From: Carallia brachiata
Taxonomy: Eukaryota > Streptophyta > Magnoliopsida > Malpighiales > Rhizophoraceae
Direction: 5' to 3'
NCBI GenBank assembly: GCA_021464245.1
Contig: JADCRB010000118.1
Coordinates: forward strand, 498,056-562,055
Length of the DNA stretch: 64,000 nt
The notes below the pieces were generated by a model. The model was given only the letters and a program-made list of their open reading frames with translations. It did no database searches and was not told where the DNA came from. Both the position numbers and the translations under genes were made by a program. This document shows, piece after piece, positions 7,241 to 56,291 of this stretch. The stretch's first letter is position 1. Each line of letters opens with the position of its first letter.

Positions 7241-8445
7241 GTAAAATATATACATAATATCATATATGATATTAATTATTTATAATATTGTAACAAAAAT
7301 AAATTAAAGAGGAAAAGATATCATATCTGAAGCGTGTAAATGCATTGTCTTTAAAGTAAGGTTCTCAGAACCGAACCGGTTATTGAACCAGAAAGTTAAG
7401 GGGTTTAAGATTCAACCGGTTCGATCGGTAAAACTGCGGTTAAATCAATATTTAATATTAAATATATAAAAATTAAATTTTTATATAACTTATATAATTA
7501 TATAAAATGTTATATTATATAAGAATGATAATAAATATTTAAAATAAAGTGTATTTTAAGAATTATATTAATATTTACATACATTAAAGATATTACAATT
7601 AGTATATTTAACAAAATATAATTTATAAAAATTAATTAAAAAAATAATATTTATAAATAGTGATTAAATATTAATTTTTAAATTTTAAAGATTAAATTAA
7701 AAATTTTAATCAATTGAGAACTAAATTAAAATTTTTAGTTAAAATTAGAGTCTTAATTATAATTTAGATAAAGTTTTGGATCAAATTATAATTTAAAATT
7801 TTTTGGTTTAAATTGAACCGATTCAACCGGTCCGATTTTTTGCCGGTTTTCTCGGTTTTTGACCGATTTTTCCGGTTTTTTACTAGTTTTTTCCTGTTCG
7901 GTCCGAATTCCATTTTTAGACTTGAACTGAACCGGACCGGACCTAGGACCGGTTCCCGATTTTTTCGGTTGAACCGGTCGGTCCGGTCCGGTTCTTAATT
8001 TATTGCTTTAAAGATAGATTCGCACCCTTACAGATAAATAATCATAGTGCATCAGGCTCTAATGGATGTCTTCCCAAAATACGACAGATCTTTTTACCAG
8101 TGTGCACTTTATGAGTGACGTAATAGAAATAATTTGATCTTATGATTAATTCAGCATCTTGACCTTTCTCAAACAAAGTGAAGGTATGAACTCAATCTTC
8201 ATAATTCTTCATTTAGAAGACGTAAGGATATGTCTAGCTTAATTACTCATGAGTAGGAGTAAAAGCTCATAAGAAAAAAAAATGAGTCATAACGGTTAGT
8301 AGAGGTTATATAACGACTAATAACAATTATATAACGACTAATTAATACATATAAAACGGTTAATCCAATAATCATAAAATGATTAATTTGATCAAGTCTA
8401 TCATACAATAATTAACCTTTTTGAAATGTAATAATAATTTACAAC
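7241..8445. repeat. dispersed repeat copy, split by a MITE
   Basis: The segments 7241-7356 and 8006-8445 are together the paralogue of 3420-3960, interrupted at one point by the M1 MITE. The pairing holds on both sides of the insertion, which confirms the element ends independently of its own sequence. Confidence 0.7.
7357..8005. mobile_element. hAT-type MITE, family M1, copy 2
   Basis: A 649-bp element flanked by the perfect 8-bp TSD ctttaaag (7349-7356 and 8006-8013). It starts TAAGGTTCTCAGAACCG and ends GGTTCTTAATTTATTG. An empty paralogous site exists at about 3506-3513 with a single ccttaaag. The AT-rich core is almost the same as copy 1, so the two share a recent ancestor. The 61-codon frame at 7813-7998 is only the translated CCGGT-rich terminus. 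Confidence 0.9.
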
Positions 8446-24221: not shown

Positions 24222-24476
24222 GGATTACTATCAAAAAATAACATCACTTTTACATTTTTTTATAAATCTAACATAATTTTTAAAACAGTTTAATTATTTT
24301 CTTATAAATTTAGTACAACCTTTAACAATTAACAAATCTAGTACAGTTCAACTATTTTTTAACAAATCTAGTAAACTGTCAATTAAAAATAATCAAATCT
24401 TCAGCATGCACATTTGGACATTTTCACATGTGAAATTTAAGAGTTTTAAACTGTACTAAATTTAGACGTAAATGTG

Positions 24477-24518
<42 letters not shown>

Positions 24519-24728
24519 GGATTTAGTTACTTTTAATTGATTATTTTTAATTGACAGTATACTGGATTTGTTAGAAAATAATTGAAATGTGCTAAATTTG
24601 TTAATTGTTAAATGTTGTACTAGATTTATAAGAAAATAATTAAATTATACTAAATTTATTAATTTTTAAAAATGATGTTAGATTTATAAAAAAAACACAA
24701 ATATAGTGTTATTTTTTGATAATAACCC
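24222..24728. mobile_element. Mutator-type MITE with long palindromic arms
   Basis: A 507-bp foldback element. Arms of about 220 bp are reverse complements, with outer ends GGATTACTATCAAAAAATAA and, reverse-complemented, GGGTTATTATCAAAAAATAA. Arm words such as TTATAAATCTAACAT, AACAATTAACAAAT and TGTCAATTAAAAATAATCAA pair across the element. The 9-bp TSD is aactcaaaa (24213-24221) versus aactcaaat (24729-24737). A TA microsatellite at about 24480-24513 sits to the right of the centre. The 9-bp TSD and long TIRs indicate Mutator-like ancestry. No coding capacity. Confidence 0.85.
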
Positions 24729-29687: not shown

Positions 29688-29692
29688 AAAAT

Positions 29693-31156
29693 TGTTGGTC
29701 CCTAGGGTGAAGCCTAGAGGGGGGGTGAATAGGCTTTACCAATGAAATCCTCAAATATAAATTTCTACAAATGAATGTAAACAAGAGATTGAAAGAAATA
29801 CAATACCGATTTTTACAAGGTTCACCAAATGGCTACGTCCTTGGTCTTCTCAACAATCCCTCTATTGGAGATTCTTGAGAGTTCAACTATAAGGGTGCCT
29901 TTGGGCGCACCAATCACCACGTACAGTTTACAAGAAGACTGCGCAAACACTCTTGCGTCCGCCTTCAAAACGCTTGTTGCACAAGTCCCACTTGCCAACA
30001 CCACTTTCCCTTTTCTTTTAGGTTTTCCTTCTTGGAGTTCAACCCTAACTCCTTACAAGATGATCCTCACAAGTTCCCACTTGAGAGCTCTCACCTATTC
30101 TCACAATGTATTACAACAATGAAACTTACTGGCTTGAATACTAGTTTTACAATAAAAGCACTTAGAGTAAAGAAAGCCTTTTTGCCTTGAGAGAGATTGT
30201 ACATGGTTGAATAAACTTTCTTCACAAGTAAAACATCTTCAAGTGATGTTTAAAAGCTGCAAGATAGGTTAGCAGCATATTAGAGCCGTTGCCATGAGTG
30301 CACATGCATACATGTTGTTTCCCTCTTGACAGCTTGCATGATTCTCTTGTTTGACACCTTCTGGTTGAACGGCTATAACTTGATACAGACAGCTTGAAAA
30401 ATTGAGATTCCTTTTTTTTTATTTATTATACTGTCAGATCTCTCTACCCACCAAATTTGACTATTTTTAAATGAGTATAGCATAGTCAAATAAATGTTTG
30501 AATACAGACGTTAAAGTTCCGTTAGACAGTCTGCACACGTTTAGTAGAACGGTAATATCTTGCAGATGGCTTTGAATTTTGATGTGATTCTTTTTGCATT
30601 GATTAATAGACAGAACAAAGAATCTACACACAAAATTTCACATTCAAATTCGTCGTGTGCTCTTCTAGGAAGCCGTTGCAATTCACTCCATGTGCACTGA
30701 AAGTTCCTGACAGCTTGCACCCTCTTGGTATAAAATTCATACGTTTTTCTCTAGGGCTCCAAAAATTGCACGACCAAACTCATTTGAAACTAGACTTATA
30801 GTCCTGCCAAAATATATATATTTTAGGCCCAAAATATATCTCAAGTGAGTGAGTTTAGTACCTGAAATCTGTCCAAACAGATTTGCTCTTATGCTGTCTT
30901 TATAAGATAGTAGCTTAATAAGGCCCAATGTGATATTTATCTTCCATGCACTTCCATGCACGTGTAAGATGGCATATGTGTACCTCTTTGGACTTCTTGA
31001 ACCTGAATTGTATACTTGAAGAACATACAAATGAAATTCACTCGTACTTATGTTAGATTGGTTCATAGCTCATTATCAAAACACTCATCATCAAAACATG
31101 AATTCACACTTAGTAACAATTTTATAATGTATGCATGGGGTGTGAATTTTCCAACA
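29693..31156 (-). repeat. 3' LTR of the WOX-carrying element
   Basis: 1,464 bp, in direct repetition with 35404-36868. Differences are mainly one- to three-base indels with a few substitutions. It contains TATAAAG on the minus strand near 30899, a possible promoter. Around 30368 and 30548 there is an internal ~180-bp periodicity. The frames at 29829-30122 and 29822-30004 recur in the other LTR and are not genes. Confidence 0.92.
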
Positions 31157-31172
31157 ATCTCCCCCTTTTTGA
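31157..31172 (-). promoter_or_regulatory. polypurine tract of the element
   Basis: AAAAAGGGGGAGAT on the minus strand, directly adjoining the 3' LTR. This is the expected primer site for plus-strand DNA synthesis. Three more AAGGGGGAG-like runs follow at about 31199, 31259 and 31332. Confidence 0.8.
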
Positions 31173-31740
31173 TGATGACAAAACCTTTAAAATAGATGCT
31201 CCCCCTTAATCTAAGCTTCCTCTAGAAATGCTCTTTCTTGATGACACGCTCTTAATTTTCTCCCCCTTTTTGTCATCAATAAAAATGGTTGAAACAAAAA
31301 ATGTGAATGCTAACTAGGTTAAGAGATTAAGACTCCCCCTTAATGTATGCATGTATCACAAGTTCACATTTACAATTTAGCATATAAGTTATAGTAACTT
31401 TGAAATGCAGGCCTTGTAGAGTTCAAATACAATCATTAAATTAAGGAAATGAAGACAATCAAGCCTATGCTAATGCATGGGGTGTGACATGCCCAATTTT
31501 CTTCTTAAAAAAATGATCTATCAAAAGGTCTTTATTCAAAATTTGGTCACTATGTTACCAAAAAATACAATGTAGATCATTACCTTCAATAATAGTTCAT
31601 GAGTAGGTCAAAAATATTACCGCAGTCAAATTGCTTACGTGGAAGTCCATCTCAGTAGTCAATTGCTTACGTGGAAGCTGACATGGCATACCTAGTCAAA
31701 AAAAGTTGCTGTCATGGCACACAATCAGAAAAGTTGTTGA
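31173..31740. other. spacer between 3' LTR and WOX cargo
   Basis: Non-coding on the element strand. It holds the extra CTCCCCCTT runs and a short duplication of tcaattgcttacgtggaag (about 31627 and 31659) just before the 21-bp repeats. It is the probable upstream region of the plus-strand WOX gene. Confidence 0.5.
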
Positions 31741-31748
31741 CGTGCCGC

Positions 31749-31877
31749 ACAGTCAGACGTAAATCGCAGACAGTCAGACGCAAGTTTCTGACAGTTAAGC
31801 GAAAGTTGAGGACAGCCAGGCAATTATTACCGCTGACAGTCAGGCGTAAATTGCGGATCGTCAGACATAAATGGAGA
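31749..31877 (+). repeat. six ~21-bp tandem repeats upstream of the WOX gene
   Basis: Units start at 31749, 31770, 31791, 31812, 31836 and 31857 (spacing 21, 21, 21, 24, 21). Each begins with a version of acagtcagacgtaaa. The words GACAGTCAG and TGACAG recur. Because all spacings are multiples of three, a plus-strand frame from 31671 reads through as basic heptads of the type TVRRKLR. The array could be a cluster of protein-binding sites or a short coding repeat. It ends 71 bp before the WOX start codon. Confidence 0.85.
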
Positions 31878-31947
31878 TATGCATTATCTCAATTTCTCTT
31901 CATCATCCAGAGTCTCAAAATTTTCACTCACCTTTCTGTTCAACAAA

Positions 31948-32534
31948 ATGAGACCACCATCAAGCCATCAGAACCTGGAAACTGGAGACTCTTCCAATTC
32001 CAGATGGAGACCGGTGCCGGAGCAATTACAAATCTTGGAAAATATTTTTCATGGCATTGAAGAAGCTCGTCCGACATCAAGCCAACTTACTCAACTTGTC
32101 TCACTGTTGAGACCATATGGTCCAATTCAGCCAAGTAACATTAGACTCTGGATCCAGAACCGAAGGCGCAGTGTGAGAATAGGCAGAGCACCTCCTGTTA
32201 TTCATTCCACCAACACAACAATTGTTTCTCAAGGAAATCCCAACCAGCATCGCCAGCCACCAGGTATTTCCCATTTATCATTTGAAATCTTGATGTGGGT
32301 CAGAGATCAAATTCCCATGAATATTTTCACTTAGTAGGAAGCATTACTCCAGTGAGAAGCAGATCGGTCAACTCTTCTCGTGAGGGAGAAAGAGAAACAC
32401 TCAGTCTCTTTCCTGTTCATCTAGGCGATCTCAATCAGCAAGAAAATGCTGGTACTATTGATATTGCCAACCTGCCGAACAATGAGGGCTTTATGGATCT
32501 AGAGCTACGCCTTAGGCCCCCTAGGAGCGACTGA
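31948..32534 (+). CDS. WUSCHEL-clade homeobox (WOX-like) protein, retrotransposon cargo, two exons
   Basis: Exon 1 is 31948-32263. The intron is 32264-32334 (71 bp, GTATTT...TTCACTTAG) and exon 2 is 32335-32534. The product is 171 residues. Residues 19-77 form a WOX-type homeodomain: RWRPVPEQLQILENIF, then the loop and helix with YGPI, then NIRLWIQNRRR as the recognition helix. It has the spacing of the WUS homeodomain with no gap. Residues 127-134 are TLSLFPVH, matching the WUS box TLxLFPxx. Residues 161-165 are LELRL, an EAR-like repressor motif near the C-terminus. WUS-clade proteins are nuclear regulators of stem-cell and organ-margin fate; this copy's role is unknown. It is antisense to the host retrotransposon, which explains why an intron survives. 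Oddity: the near-invariant WFQN is WIQN. An upstream in-frame ATG at 31879 would add 23 residues but looks less natural. Confidence 0.85.
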
Positions 32535-33560: not shown

Positions 33561-33926
33561 TCAGTGTTTAGCAATCATCAAAACCAAAAAAAAACGAAAC
33601 CTTAGGGTCTTAACAAGCACATGCATTACACAACTTATTCTTTTTCCTACAAATCTCAATGCTTTAGTATGGGGATCATATAATTCACAAGTCATGGGTT
33701 TGAATAATATCTTAAAACCTTTATCACACATTTGGATAATGCTAATTAAGTTGTGCTTTAAACCACTTACCAAAGCAACATCCTCAATAAAACTCGATAC
33801 ATTGTTACCTATAGTGCCAACTCCAATGATTTTGCCTTTTCCATTGTCTCCAAATGTGACACATCCACTATCAAGATACCAAATGGCATCTTCTTTAAAA
33901 TATGTTGCCTTCAAGTACTTTTCCAC
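33561..33926 (-). pseudogene. retrotransposon protease remnant (start of pol)
   Basis: The frame contains WYLDSGC, the aspartic protease region of copia Pol, joined directly to VTFGDNGKGKIIGVG. The stretch that normally separates the two is missing, so there is an internal deletion. The text then continues LKHNLISI, also typical of copia Pol, and stops at 33561. Nothing of integrase or reverse transcriptase follows. The frame overlaps the end of gag in another phase. Confidence 0.8.
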
Positions 33927-35348
33927 CTACAAAACAAGATGTAGAATATTTTGGTACCCATATCTTTTTGGGTCCTTCAATGTTACAACAATCATTCTTC
34001 TTCATTGAATCTTTAACCATCCATACTTGTTTGAATTTATTAGATTTTGCCCAAACTTTAGAAGATGACACATACTTGTTAGGATCACTAGGTCTTCTAA
34101 GTCTACAATCATGAAATTTGTGTCCTTCTTTATGACAATAAAAACATGATACAACATTTTTCTTCTCTTTTATGAGATTAGTCTTGTTTTTAGTGAGGTA
34201 TCCCAAACCGGATTTGTTAAAAAATTTCTTTTGACAAGATAACATCTCATCTAACTTATTGCTACCTAATGTGAATTTTGAAAAGGACTTTTCTAAATTT
34301 AAATTCTTTTCTTTAAGGTCCTCAACTTCTTTTTCCAAAGCATGATGTAAATTGTCTTTGATGTTAGGAGCCTCTTTAGATATTGCAAGCTCTTGTTTAA
34401 CAAAATTTAACTCACTACAAGTTGATTTATGATCTAATTTAGCCTTTTCAAGTTCTTCTTTTAAAAGACTATTTTCCAATACAATTTCATCTTTCTCTAA
34501 CAAAAGTTTTTCACATGCTTTCTTTTGCTCTTTATATTGTTTACATTTCCTTTTAAAAGTGATCAATAAATCATCAAAAGCTTCTCTAAGTTCTTCATAA
34601 GAGGGAAGATCCATTACCTCATTGTCACTTTCATCGTCGTCATCTAGGGCCATGAGTGCTACATTTTTTGAGGATGGTTCTACTTGTGGTAATGCACTTC
34701 TCCTTTTGAGTTTGATCTCATGAGTTATCAAGGACCCAAGTAACTCTTCCATGGTTAGCTCCTCCACGTTGTGAGTTTCTTCAATGGCATTAATCTTCAT
34801 TTCGTATTCCTCATTCATCGAATTCATTAATTTCTGCACAAGTTCACCCTTTCCAAACACTTTGCCAAGATCGGTTAGTCCATTAGCAATAATCATGAGT
34901 CTATCATACACACTTTTAACCGATTCATTTGGTCTCATAGTGAAAAGTTCAAAGTCTTTCATAAGCATGCCAAGTTTAACTTTCCTAACTTTTAATGTCC
35001 CTTCATTTGAGAGACACAATGTATTCCAAATTTCCTTAGCATTTTTACAATGTTTGATGGTGTTATATTCACTTCTAGCTATGGACGTTTTCAAATAATA
35101 ATATGCTATTTCATCTATTTGGTTTTTCTTATAGTCCTCTTCATCCCATTTTCTATTGGTTTTACTCTCAAGGTTTTTACTCCCTTATCATCAACAACTT
35201 CTTCCTTAGGAACATATGGTCCCTCTTCTACACTTTGCCAAACTTTCATCCCCTTAAATTTAAGATAACTTTCCATATGATCTTTATAGTATTGAAAATC
35301 ACTACCATCAAAGAAAGGTCTCTTGTTTTCATTAAATGAGGATTCCAT
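33895..35348 (-). pseudogene. copia-type gag, one frameshift
   Basis: The N-terminus starts at 35348 (MESSFNENKRPFFDGSDFQY) and has the usual WQSVEEGPYVP block. The frame is lost near 35150 in an AAAA run and is recovered as a 399-codon frame from 35094 to 33895. In order, this second part holds the UBN2-type gag domain (KEIWNTLCL, NESVKSVYDRL), a charged coiled coil, and a CCHC zinc knuckle, CFYCHKEGHKFHDC. One missing base explains the break. Gag forms the virus-like particle of the element. Whether the break is biological or an assembly error cannot be told here. Confidence 0.85.
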
Positions 35349-35389
35349 GGGGATCCCTCAAGGATGTTAAGCCTTACAAGTGAGGTTAA

Positions 35390-35401
35390 GCTCTGATACC
35401 A
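35390..35401 (-). promoter_or_regulatory. primer binding site, tRNA-iMet type
   Basis: TGGTATCAGAGC on the minus strand, two bases inside the 5' LTR. This is the classical complement of the initiator methionine tRNA 3' end and fixes the element's orientation. Confidence 0.92.
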
Positions 35402-35403
35402 AA

Positions 35404-36868
35404 TGTTGGTCCCTAGGGTGAAGCCTAGAGGGGGGTGAATAGGCTTTACCAATGAAATCCTCAAATATAAATTTCTACAAATGAATGTAAACAAGAGATT
35501 GAAAGAAATACAATACCGATTTTTACAAGGTTCACCAAATGGCTACGTCCTTGGTCTTCTCAACAATCCCTCTATTGGAGATTCTTGAGAGTTCAACTAT
35601 AAGGGTGCCTTTGGGCGCACCAATCACCACGTACAGTTTACAAGAAGACTCCGCAAACACCCTTGCGTCCGCCTTCAAAACGCTTGTTGCACAAGTCCCA
35701 CTTGCCAACACCACTTTCCCTTTTCTTTTAGGTTTTCCTTCTTGGAGTTCAACCCTAACTCCTTACAAGATGATCCTCACAAGTCCCACTTGAGAGCTCT
35801 CACCTATTCTCACAATGTATTACAATACAAATGAAACTTACTAGCTTGAATGCTAGTTTTACAATAAAAGCACTTAGAGTAAAGAAAGCCTTTTTGCCTT
35901 GAGAGAGATTGTACAGTGGTTGAATATAACTTTCTTCACAAGTAAAACATCTTCAAGTGATGTTTAAATAGCTGCAAGATAGGTTAGCAGCATATTAGAG
36001 CCGTTGCCATGAGTTGCACATGCATACCTTGTTGTTTCCCTCTTGACAGCTTTGCATTGATTCTCTTGTTTGACACCTTCTGGTTGAACGGCTATAACTT
36101 GATACAGACAGCTTGAAAAATTGCGATTCCTTTTTTTTATTTATTATACTGTCAGCTCTCTACCCACCAAATTTGACTATTTTTAATGAGTATAGCATAG
36201 TCAAATAAATGTTTGAATACAGACGTTAAAGTTCCGTTAGACAGTCTGCACACGTTTAGTAGAACGGTAATATCTTGCAGATGGCTTTGAATTTTGATGT
36301 GATTCTTTTTGCATTGATTAATAGACAGAACAAAGAATCTACACACAAAATTTCACATTCAAATTCGTCGTGTGCTCTTCTAGGCAGCCGTTGCAATTCA
36401 CTCCATGTGCACTGAAAGTTCCTGACAGCTTGCACCCTCTTGGTATAAAATTCATAAGTTTTTCTCTAGGGCTCCAAAAATTGCACGACCAAGCATTTGA
36501 AACTAGACTTATAGTCCTGCCAAAATATATATATTTTAGGCCCAAAATATATCTCAAGTGAGTGAGTTTAGTACCTGAATCTGTCCAAACAGATTTGCTC
36601 TTATGCTGTCTTTATAAGATAGTAGCTTAATAAGGCCCAATATGATATTTATCTTCCATGCACTTCCATGCACGTGTAAGATGACATATGTGTACCTCTT
36701 TGGACTTCTTGAACCTGAATTGTTTACTTGAAGAACATACAAATGAAATTCACTCGTACTTATGTTAGATTGGTTCATAGCTCATTATCAAAACACTCAT
36801 CATCAAAACATGAATTCACACTTAGTAACAATTTTATAATGTATGCATGAGGTGTGAATTTTCCAACA
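35404..36868 (-). repeat. 5' LTR of the WOX-carrying element
   Basis: 1,465 bp, in direct repetition with 29693-31156. It has the same terminal TGTTGG...CCAACA and the same TATAAAG on the minus strand near 36611. It often retains single bases missing from the other LTR, so indels dominate the divergence. Confidence 0.92.
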
Positions 36869-36873
36869 AAAAT

Positions 36874-40444: not shown

Positions 40445-41895
40445 TTATGATGATACCGGCTCGATATAAAATCCAATGTGATCATTATAGTTGTCAACGT
40501 ATCCATAGAAACCGACGATTTTAGCACTCTCTAGTGGTCCCATAGCCACCCTCGTAATCATAGCCAGAGGCTCCATATGTATTTTCTCCAAGAGAACGAT
40601 CATATGGATATAAATCGAGAAGATAAAAATAAATATATAATTCATTCAAAAATATTTAATATTTTTTTATTTTAATATTTTTAATTTAATTATTCAACGA
40701 TTTATATTATTTTAATATCACGTTGATCTTATTTAACTTAAGCCGATCAAGTATTTTCCTTTCTCAAATTCGTGAAAAATTGATAGAGATGTGACAAAAG
40801 CGGCACCAATCCACGTTCAATACGCTCCGGCAAAGGATGTTAAATTTTCGTTGAAAGCATTCTCTAGTGGAACAGAGACATGACAATGTTAGAAATGTGA
40901 AAAAATTAATGTTAGAGCTATATGTGACGATGACATAAACGGCATCCTTTCCATATCCCTTGGCGACCTGAACAGTAACTGGACCGCCTGGACCCTCGGG
41001 ACCGCCATATTTTAGCGTCTCGTATGCTGCCGCTTGCAGCTTGGATGGTGAGCTGAAGACAAGCGAATCAACAACAGCCCCCGTAGTGATTGCTATTATT
41101 GTCGTAATATGCCAGCCCGTTGGAATCTGGAAAAGGTTGATGGCAGCTTCCACATTAGCCCTGCACCTGCAGTATCATCACATCATCACCGCATCAGCAA
41201 CATTTTTGTAATAAAGATCTCTCTTTCGAAAGAGGAAAAAAAAAAAAAAAAAGGCTTACTGGCACACAAGGCTCGTTTGTTATAGAAAAATAGTTTTTTG
41301 TTTTTTTCATTTTTCACTATTTGGCAAAGGAAAAAAATGAAGGTCAACGTAAAAATTTTAGTTCAGTCAACAAAAAATAAGACTATTTTTAAGAAAAATA
41401 ATTTATATTTTAAATAACTTACACTCTTCAAAAGCGTAAGTTATTTTCTAGACAAAACTCAATCAACAGAAAGCATGAGAGCGAGACAATAATTCCAACC
41501 AACCACTCCACCACCATCACGACTTTCCATCAGCGTCTTGCACTAGCCCGTTGCCGGATCCTTTACCTCATTCGCAATGATATTGGGTAATGTTTTTTTT
41601 TCTATTTTCTCAAAATTTTCACGCTTTTTTCTATTTATTTATTTTTAACAAAAATGATGGAATTTCTGATCCCCGCTCCATTTTTTTGTTTGACTCTTTC
41701 ACATTTTTTCAGTTTTATCCAAACGTGCACCAAACATAGAAAATATTTTTTAATAAATTTCAACATCACAGCCATTATTAGAAAATAATTTACTTTCTCT
41801 ATTTTTTTTTCAGCAAATATTTTATACACAACAGTTATTTTCCAACAAATAAACCTACCTTAGAGTTAAAGACAAGATCGCACCTTAATTCCCAT
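40445..41895 (-). pseudogene. jacalin-related lectin pseudogene, copy 1
   Basis: Exon 1 is 41895-41884 (MGIK, then a GTGCGA donor). The second exon begins after CAG near 41163. It keeps FQIPTGWHITTIIAITTGAV and VDSLVF, but lacks the GPWG segment expected between them. A shifted frame follows before YGGPEGPGGPV. The last exon reads AKIVGFYGYVDNYNDHIGFY and ends at 40445, after a deletion that removed the strand normally reading VVKFS. Frame breaks occur between the remaining parts. The promoter TATA box is still present at 41983. Compared with the intact gene at 55303-56720 only one jacalin domain is recognisable. Its intron 1 holds a 590-bp insertion. Confidence 0.8.
41270..41859. mobile_element. 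MITE-like insertion in lectin copy 1, intron 1
   Basis: 590 bp absent from the matching place in lectin copy 2, where acatcaa joins ttaagagttaaagac. The ends are roughly inverted: GGCTCGTTTGTTATAGAAAA and, reverse-complemented, GGTAGGTTTATTTGTTGGAA. No clear TSD. It is probably a decayed MITE related to the one at 59151. Confidence 0.5.
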
Positions 41896-42483: not shown

Positions 42484-43563
42484 ATCTCTCACTTGGTCTG
42501 CGAAATTCCGAATAGGTGATACCTGTGTCTATGGTCATGACTTGAACTACCCATACAAGCTAACTTGTAACTGTAATTTGTTTAACTATAAATCTCTATT
42601 CATGGATCATAATAGTTATGTAACACTTTTGGAAACATTTCATTCCACGTATCACTATGCTAGTAAATTCATAATCAAACACTTTAATAAGGCAAAATTT
42701 TATTAAATAAAAAAACTTTAGGCCTCAATGTAAAAAATAATTGTTTATTTTGCCAATAACCAAAAGGTCTTCAAAATACTGAAACATCAGAGAGCATAGT
42801 TTGAAGTAAAACTTAAGTAGAGCTAACAAGACCTATATACTCAACATAATCCTTGTATGATTTAGCCAATAATCTTTTAGTTATAGGATCAACAACCATA
42901 AGTTGAGTATTGATATACTCTATTACAATTGCTTGCTCTTTAATATTACCTCTGACAACCAAAAACTTTATATTGATATACTTGTTTTGGCTTCTGCTTT
43001 TATTATTCTTTGAAAAGAACACCACAACTGAATTACTATAATATACTTTTAGTGGTCTAGAAATATAATCTACAATCTGTAGTCCTGTGATAAATTCTTT
43101 GACCATAGAGCCTGTGCTATAAGTCTTTTGATGTGCTATGAATTCCGCTTCCGTGGTAGAAGAAGCAATAATAGTTTACTTGATGCTTCTTTAGGACACA
43201 ACACCTTCAGCAAGCATGAAAATGTATATAGTAGTAGACTTTCTGCTGTCTATGCGAAATCAACATCTGCATACCTGACCACCTCCAAACGGTCAATATG
43301 TTTGCATGTAAGCCTGTAGTTCTTGGTTAGTTCCTAGTTCCTTATAGATACCTCATAACATTTTCGACAGATTTCCAATGCTCTTGCCAAAAATTACTTT
43401 GGTAACTACACAACATTCCTATTGCAAATGCAATGTCAAGTCCAATGAAAACCTGTGCATACATAAGTCTACCAACTGTTGATGCATATGGTATCTTTTG
43501 GAGTATGATGGCCCAAATCCTTTTCAACGTAGCCAGAAGTGCTTGCGGTGTGACATAATATGA

Positions 43564-55302: not shown

Positions 55303-56252
55303 TCATGCCATGGGCTTGATGTAAATCCCTATATTCTGAATGAAATTATCAGAAAATACAAAAAACCCTGAGATTTGTGCATTCTCCAATGGAGGGCTAG
55401 AAAATTTCACCGTGTCTGTAGTGACCCCATCTGGATTATCTTCCTCGTGTCCATAAGGTCCATAAGTATTTCCCGAGTTTGTGGTAAATGATATGGCTGT
55501 GACATAAATGCCCTCTCGATTAGTCCAATTCGCATATGCTCCAGCAATTGATGTTATATATTCAACCAAAGTAAATTCCACCTGGCCATCGATACATACA
55601 GTTTGCACTCAGATTGATAAGTAATGATTGTACACCATATGATAGAACAAAAACATCCGCCACAAATAAATAAATAAAAAAATGCCTACTGACATTAGCG
55701 GGACTGCCGCCGTTGCCGCCAAACTTTACAGAGTACTCCTCCTGCCCACTTTCGTCTTGGGCGGTGATGGCAAGGGAATCAATGACAGTACCATGACCTA
55801 CTATTATCTCCGTAATGTAGCCATCCTTAGGAGTCTGGAAGGACCCACTGCTCGCCGAAGTTTCTCTGCCCCAAGGTCCTACACTGATAACACCCCCGGC
55901 CTCCACCTACAATATATATATATAGGTTGGTACTGACTCTTAAAAATAAACGAATTAAAATTAATGATATTGAAATACAATACCGGCTTTGAAAAAAATC
56001 CAATTTTCACAATATAGATGTCAGCAAATCCATAAAAGCCAGCGACTTTAGCATTCTTCAGCGTTGGAAGAGAGAACTTGACAACGCCAGTGGCCCCAGA
56101 TGGTCTGTCGTAGTCATAGCCATAAGGTCCATATGTTTTCAAATTTGTGATAAACGTCAGAGATGTGACATAAACTTCCCCCAAGTATGTCCCATATGCT
56201 CCAGCAATTGATGTTAAATATTCATTGGAACCCAACTCCACCTGCAATATGC

Positions 56253-56291
<39 letters not shown>

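Follow-up and report, generated by a model that had tools for sequence, protein, structure and literature searches.

The WOX gene of the window and its Ty1/copia carrier

The window, a stretch of 64,000 nucleotides from the genome of Carallia brachiata, encodes a WUSCHEL (WUS)-type homeobox protein of the WOX family on its plus strand. The gene and its parts are as follows.

31600..31947, plus strand: 5' flank of WOX with the presumed promoter; varies more between copies than any other part of the element
31948..32534, plus strand: WUS-type WOX gene, ATG at 31948 and TGA at 32534, antisense to gag
31999..32169, plus strand: homeodomain, residues 18-74 (Pfam PF00046, predicted helices, fold match)
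32264..32334, plus strand: segment with GT-AG ends, either intron or coding; 33 of 40 copies have it at 72 nt, in frame
32397..32420, plus strand: WUS box TLSLFPVH, by direct sequence reading (TLPLFPIH in the host WUS)
32499..32513, plus strand: EAR-like motif LELRL, by direct sequence reading (SLELSLN in the host WUS)

The homeodomain was recognized by Pfam (PF00046) with an E-value of 2.8e-06, better than the curated cut-off. Among 177,635 distinct PDB sequences, STENOFOLIA (1.2e-08) and WUSCHEL (1.7e-08) were the sole matches with E < 1. A single-sequence structure model of residues 1-105, of modest mean pLDDT (60), placed three helices at the homeodomain positions; Foldseek ranked the DNA-bound WUS homeodomain first among 31 matches to it (probability 1.00, E 0.07), none of which reached an E-value of 0.001 or better. 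The WUS box is defined as TL.LFP.. and the EAR-like tail as LEL.L. Along the protein the homeodomain is followed by TLSLFPVH and then by LELRL, and three features of modern-clade WOX proteins—WOX-type homeodomain, WUS box and EAR-like tail—are present. The initial annotation had named all three from the letters alone and proposed a comparison with WOX proteins and a tree; both motifs lie where they were read, the comparison returned WOX proteins and the homeodomain groups with WOX in the tree described below. Against 5.8 billion predicted proteins, the 171-residue product gave 78 candidates and none with E ≤ 1, a null result that is not evidence of absence, since WOX genes like those of the host are widespread in plants and the collection apparently holds few or no plant proteins.

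The initial annotation had also described a two-exon gene on the plus strand. The strand is confirmed, while the two exons are doubtful: the segment 32264-32334 has GT-AG ends, yet its length in 33 of 40 copies is 72 nt, a multiple of three that keeps the frame. Counted as coding, it leaves the open reading frame uninterrupted in 15 of the 40 copies, with 195 codons in all except L075, which is 9 nt shorter; counted as spliced out, it leaves 20 of the 40 open, among them the window copy, whose frame is open only in this way. Both readings of the segment appear possible. The 40 copies are the best-scoring among 114 candidates, and the intact fractions are therefore skewed upwards.

The gene lies within a Ty1/copia element of 7,176 bp with the following parts.

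29688..29692, no strand: left copy of the target site duplication (TSD) AAAAT, identical to the 5 bp at 36869-36873
29693..31156, minus strand: 3' LTR, 1,464 bp, TG..CA, pairs with 35404-36868
31157..31170, minus strand: polypurine tract (PPT) AAAAAGGGGGAGAT (minus strand), by direct reading, adjoins the 3' LTR
33561..33926, minus strand: protease-region remnant (Pol_BBD, E 2.5e-07)
33895..35357, minus strand: copia-type gag, frame interrupted in the window copy (Retrotran_gag_2, E 7.6e-26)
35390..35401, minus strand: primer-binding site (PBS) TGGTATCAGAGC
35404..36868, minus strand: 5' LTR, 1,465 bp, pairs with 29693-31156
36869..36873, no strand: right copy of the TSD AAAAT, matches 29688-29692

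LTRs, TSD, PBS and PPT together indicate one single element on the minus strand, in which the WOX gene is antisense to gag and on the side of the 3' LTR. The two LTRs differ by 17 substitutions (eight transitions and nine transversions) in 1,455 aligned bases, and the TSD, perfect although weak taken alone because AAAAT is an AT-rich word, flanks them on both sides. We take the PBS to be of the Met-tRNA type. The PBSs of most Ty1/copia elements are stated to match tRNA-Met (PMC6317226). Reverse transcriptase (RT), RNase H and integrase were not found in the window element, none of them following the protease remnant, and the carrier is hence non-autonomous.

Elsewhere in the window, 24279-24396 and 24537-24654 form an inverted repeat with 118-nt arms that are 89% complementary and 140 nt apart; it looks like a hairpin or else a small element of the inverted-repeat type. 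The minus-strand ORFs at 40764-41174 and 55562-56253 resemble exons of jacalin-type lectins, and the minus-strand ORF at 42813-43175, which resembles the end of a copia RNase H, is probably a relic of another element.

Copies in the genome and a second carrier of the Ty3/gypsy superfamily

The searched genome (337.5 Mb, 164 contigs) is the one holding the window. A DNA search with the WOX gene yielded 114 first-look candidates; 40 were scored, and each of the 40 matched at least 585 of the 587 bases of the gene with an identity of 98-100%. Twenty copies were obtained with their flanks and 19 more as the gene only, which with the window copy makes 40. Of these 20 copies with flanks plus the window copy, 17 have two LTRs in view; these elements measure 6.8-7.6 kb and have LTR-to-LTR distances (K2P) of 0.002-0.030. 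A perfect 5-bp TSD borders 11 of the 17, and all 11 TSDs are different. Of the other six, L010 and L012 have one TSD mismatch, L019 and L020 stand in an array with shared LTRs, L022 is ragged at one end, and L023 has an LTR that is truncated. Among 28 flanks of up to 1.1 kb, taken from 14 copies, there was no similarity between copies at an E-value of 1e-10. Full copies at unrelated sites with different perfect TSDs and dissimilar flanks show that the whole element moves together with its cargo.

The initial annotation had placed the gene wholly between the LTRs of one element with a perfect 5-bp TSD and concluded that it had become mobile. The origin of the LTRs from two different elements, its own counter-case, does not apply, and mobility is well supported, with the additions that the carrier is non-autonomous, the gene antisense and the intron doubtful. 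In a search with gag, 40 of 127 candidates were scored, and 25 of these have a scored WOX gene 1.2-1.8 kb downstream. L077, the single copy examined of the 15 without a scored WOX gene, does carry WOX, in an interrupted frame. A copia partner with pol was sought by the same search, and none was met in L077, which is co-linear with the window element and leaves no room for pol. Three WOX copies (L025, L027 and L028) have other sequence upstream, and L025 adjoins gypsy-like coding sequence. L019 (contig C128) and L020 (contig C49) are tandem arrays of WOX elements sharing LTRs and are nearly identical, possibly as uncollapsed haplotypes or by duplication.

A genome search with the homeodomain of Arabidopsis WUS yielded 1,402 candidates, of which 150 were scored. 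Nine of these are host-like loci (65-85% identity), and the other 141 match at 52-56%. All 19 of the 141 that were read are copies of one ORF family. One of them, L037, whose upstream part is supplied by L057, belongs to a Ty3/gypsy element that has RT (2.9e-30), RNase H, RVT_3 (3.2e-24; the additional RNase H, aRNH) and integrase (7.8e-11) domains in interrupted frames. The WOX ORF of L037 comprises 207 codons, is uninterrupted, lies in sense orientation before the 3' LTR and encodes a homeodomain (2.7e-12), TLPLFPEY and LDLELHL; a PPT and a 968-bp LTR follow. With its 5' LTR, L037 measures 9,756 bp (LTR K2P 0.024), and comparison of its ends gave no matching TSD. A copy on contig C101 has the perfect TSD CTTAT, a length of 10,036 bp and an LTR K2P of 0.0215, a third copy has LTR starts and different flanks but no TSD, and a copy on contig C88 has LTR matches of about 680 bp at both ends. 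The TSD is thus perfect in one of three copies with compared ends, and the LTR pair was measured in two copies. As two of the three lack a TSD and the pol frame of L037 is interrupted, the family is not to be called autonomous. A DNA search with the gypsy WOX ORF gave 1,229 candidates; the 40 scored matched at 99-100%, and 19 of them, L037 included and spread over many contigs, have the full score, the one that 690 identical bp would give. The domains of L037 follow the order RT-RH-aRH-IN, and RH-aRH-IN is the order given for Ogre/Retand elements (PMC6317226); by this order the second carrier would be a Tat-type (Ogre/Retand) gypsy element. Long A-rich, lysine-coding tracts flank the gypsy pol on both sides (L037 3846-4148 and L057 at about 7400-7800).

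The two element-borne proteins are homologous along their length. In a BLASTP comparison, the spliced window product and the gypsy ORF shared 33% identity over 206 columns (E 2e-23, a two-sequence E-value); the alignment begins at the first residue and reaches the LEL tail, and the proteins are co-linear. A homeodomain tree was calculated with eight of the nine host loci (L029-L036), Arabidopsis WUS (AtWUS), STENOFOLIA (STF), five intact gypsy ORFs and ten different copia variants, a few of which may stem from copies with a break in another place; the intermediate and ancient WOX clades of the host and the ninth locus were left out. Gypsy and copia WOX formed one clade apart from the sampled host WOX (SH-aLRT 93.3, UFBoot 95; UFBoot 93 in a smaller tree). 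A homeodomain loop longer by one residue is common to gypsy, copia and WUS and absent from the six other sampled host WOX and from STF. Identities to host WOX homeodomains are 28-38% for copia and 41-52% for gypsy, and 45% between copia and gypsy. Strong divergence marks the copia homeodomain, in which residues that other WOX conserve have been lost, e.g. the F in WFQN; its recognition helix reads SNIRLWIQNRR as against GKNVFYWFQNHK or GKNVFYWFQNRR. Long-branch attraction between the two divergent branches is a possible source of the clade and a caveat to it, against which the full-length co-linearity argues. Given the length of the copia branch, the simpler guess is that the gene passed from gypsy to copia; this direction and the exact parent gene are conjectural.

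The host WUS has the homeodomain, the WUS box, the LEL-type tail and the longer loop. Its homeodomain and TLPLFPIH lie in the same frame with many stops between, presumably in different exons. The element-borne genes resemble host WUS and modern-clade WOX in the homeodomain, and WUS also in WUS box, LEL-type tail and loop length; they differ in being multi-copy, LTR-flanked and divergent, and in a reading frame that is uninterrupted (gypsy) or of doubtful exon structure (copia). Two host loci are WUS-like (C90:2365921 and C65:261066) and two WOX1-like (C40:2417599 and C77:316052), which suggests a past duplication of the host genome.

Constraint, decay and rival explanations

The reading we prefer, and consider rather probable, is that a non-autonomous copia element multiplies a WUS-type gene which likely forms one branch of a WOX gene permanently resident in retrotransposons, with the other branch in the larger gypsy family, and that the ORF is kept for helping the element. 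The two carriers with their LTRs, the numbers of candidates (the best 40 of each scored), the homology of the two cargo proteins and the open frames of part of the copies are shown; the history of the gene and the action of its protein, beyond its being a WUS-type protein encoded in an LTR element, we infer.

Selection was followed in 19 gypsy ORFs, namely L037 and 18 of the 140 others, 14 from the upper rows of the matches and four hand-picked from equal-scoring rows. Five are intact. Nine distant intact pairs (one very close pair left out) have dS values of 0.08-0.16 and dN/dS ratios of 0.31-0.42, and Fisher tests of three of them gave p-values of 0.0014, 0.0073 and 0.0009. The pattern would be that of a constrained lineage with single copies decaying, as judged from non-independent pairs in a set picked for open frames. 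The constraint speaks against the strongest rival, a WOX gene captured by chance and copied passively as a neutral hitch-hiker, its protein useless to the element. So do the full-length homology between proteins of two superfamilies, which takes in WUS box and LEL tail, and the 19 copies with full score to the open-frame L037 among the best 40 of 1,229. This rival, which we regard as unlikely but the most serious one, draws on the decay: 14 of the 19 gypsy copies are broken, pN/pS over all 19, broken ones included, is 0.69, the closest intact gypsy pair (one synonymous and five nonsynonymous differences, Fisher p 1.0) is unconstrained, and 20 to 25 of the 40 best-scoring copia copies are broken as well.

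The copia gene itself gave a pN/pS of 0.46 from few variants (eight synonymous and 12 nonsynonymous in 21 copies), and 0.42 when summed over pairs of the ten copies uninterrupted among these first 21. In 15 full copia elements, pairwise diversity amounted to 0.33-0.45% in the WOX exons and 0.44% in the 71-nt segment. Gag had 0.76%, the LTRs had 1.3-2.1%, the protease remnant 1.9% and the 5' flank of WOX (31600-31947) 5.4%. A 200-bp stretch of gag has a diversity of 0.04%, below that of WOX, and the longest ATG-led gag frames of these elements have 151-362 codons, versus 485 codons from stop to stop in L077; as the gag stretch is lower still and gag frames are mostly short, the low diversity of WOX alone is no proof of selection on the protein. 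It could stem from gene conversion or a recent common source.

Within the 5' flank, BLAST skipped 31734-31906 in 17 of the 20 copies with flanks. Degenerate repeats of the TGACA/TGTCA type lie in the wider flank 31157-31947, and together with the divergent 31600-31947 this region looks as if subfamilies had exchanged promoters. In a scan for WUS sites covering both LTR families and the flanks (42 tests), neither LTR had an enrichment surviving correction for multiple testing. Single exploratory values among the 42 were 34 TGAA against 23 expected in the copia LTR (reached in 3 of 200 shuffles) and eight TGACA against 2.6 expected in the WOX 5' flank (0 of 200 shuffles).

A second rival holds that the antisense transcript matters and not the protein, transcription from the WOX promoter regulating copia through antisense or small RNA. 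It would suit the antisense position of WOX relative to gag and the frequently broken frames, and regulation at the RNA level has been proposed for antisense ORFs (aORFs) of other elements (PMC7264820). We rate it as improbable, for the related gypsy gene has the sense orientation and keeps a coding frame in five of the 19 copies read, and no part of the copia element varies more than the presumed promoter. An ordinary host WOX locus lying between the LTRs of two different elements was rejected as next to impossible, with nothing found in its favour, given the matching TSD, the 17 LTR substitutions in 1,455 bases and the same arrangement repeated with dissimilar flanks at many unrelated sites.

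Proposed mechanism, known systems and meaning

Most likely, the WOX gene descends from WUS and is now a resident accessory gene of retrotransposons, presumably retained for a role in the life of its carriers. WUS-type proteins bind TAAT/TGAA-type sites with the homeodomain, recruit TOPLESS co-repressors through the WUS box and the EAR-like motif and maintain shoot stem cells. In plants, germ cells are set aside late, from shoot stem cells; an element able to extend the stem-cell state, or active during it, would therefore gain heritable insertions.

With the gene as a resident accessory gene, the course of events may have begun with a Tat-type gypsy element that once captured a spliced WUS-like transcript; a spliced transcript is suggested by the uninterrupted gypsy ORF and the apparently exon-split host WUS. 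The ORF would have been retained for its benefit to the element and later passed to a copia element which, having no pol, would depend on the enzymes of another element. The protein is predicted to be a repressor that works within stem cells or upon them: it would enter the nucleus and bind WUS-like sites via its homeodomain, and WUS box and LELRL tail would recruit TOPLESS-type co-repressors. As a result, shoot stem cells, the precursors of the germ line, would be held in a state favouring transposition; alternatively, the protein would tune the transcription of the element itself. With its altered recognition helix, the copia protein may recognize different targets or may be a competitor. 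The furthest-reaching version—a long-term resident derived from WUSCHEL and exchanged between gypsy and copia, a stem-cell regulator that gives access to the germ line and has seeded hundreds of WUS-like frames—is put forward tentatively, as a possibility we would not favour outright.

That LTR retrotransposons of plants can carry additional ORFs is known, and two groups of these resemble the present ones in position. The antisense aORF-3R of Grande (gene23), RIRE2, Retand and PvRetro13 lies, like the copia WOX gene, just before the 3' LTR (PMC7264820, PMC11963269), and DNA-binding products have been proposed for those of Retand (PMC7264820, PMC11963269). A 2020 review stated that no aORF-3R had clear similarity to other proteins (PMC7264820); in a 2025 survey of Retand, TRP28 and five other known domains, Smc among them, are reported from antisense ORFs, and the terms homeodomain, "homeo", "WUS" and "WOX" do not occur in its main text (PMC11963269). 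Unlike these, the window product can be recognized as a homeodomain protein of the WUS type, and its carrier is a copia element that lacks pol. The sense eORF-3'F of Tat/Ogre/Retand and SIRE elements lies, like the gypsy WOX ORF, between integrase and 3' LTR, and the RH-aRH-IN order is likewise shared (PMC6317226). The REXdb survey of such ORFs counted those of at least 250 codons only, a minimum that WOX ORFs of 195-207 codons would escape; plant mobile domain, Transposase_28 and Athila ORF-1 are among the domains it names, and it gives some CDD match for 21.4% of the eORFs (PMC6317226).

Host-derived genes carried and kept by LTR retrotransposons are known from gene capture in rice, sorghum and maize (PMC13317346) and from the m6A demethylase domain of orchid Ty3/gypsy elements (PMC9289625). 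In contrast to those captures, the cargo here is a developmental transcription factor, extending from homeodomain to EAR-like tail and present in copia and gypsy elements of one genome. The main text of a 2026 review of gene capture does not contain the terms WOX or homeobox (PMC13317346). The impression recorded with the initial annotation, that no described retrotransposon family is known to have such cargo, agrees with the open-licence papers, in which no WOX or homeobox cargo of an LTR retrotransposon was found; supplements, subscription papers and preprints were outside the scope of that search.

The accessory ORFs of plant retrotransposons are common and mostly without recognizable function, whereas the WOX cargo is of a recognizable master-regulator type. 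As this regulator type has known partners and binding sites, the role of the cargo is directly testable. A gene of the same type as the developmental switch WUS has thereby become a component of jumping genes and likely serves the elements themselves. If the elements do use WOX, they would offer an analogue of the capture of growth regulators by viruses, a parasite carrying the stem-cell switch of its host. In genomes with such elements, WOX gene counts can be inflated by mobile copies, and domestication of element copies could yield new WOX genes.
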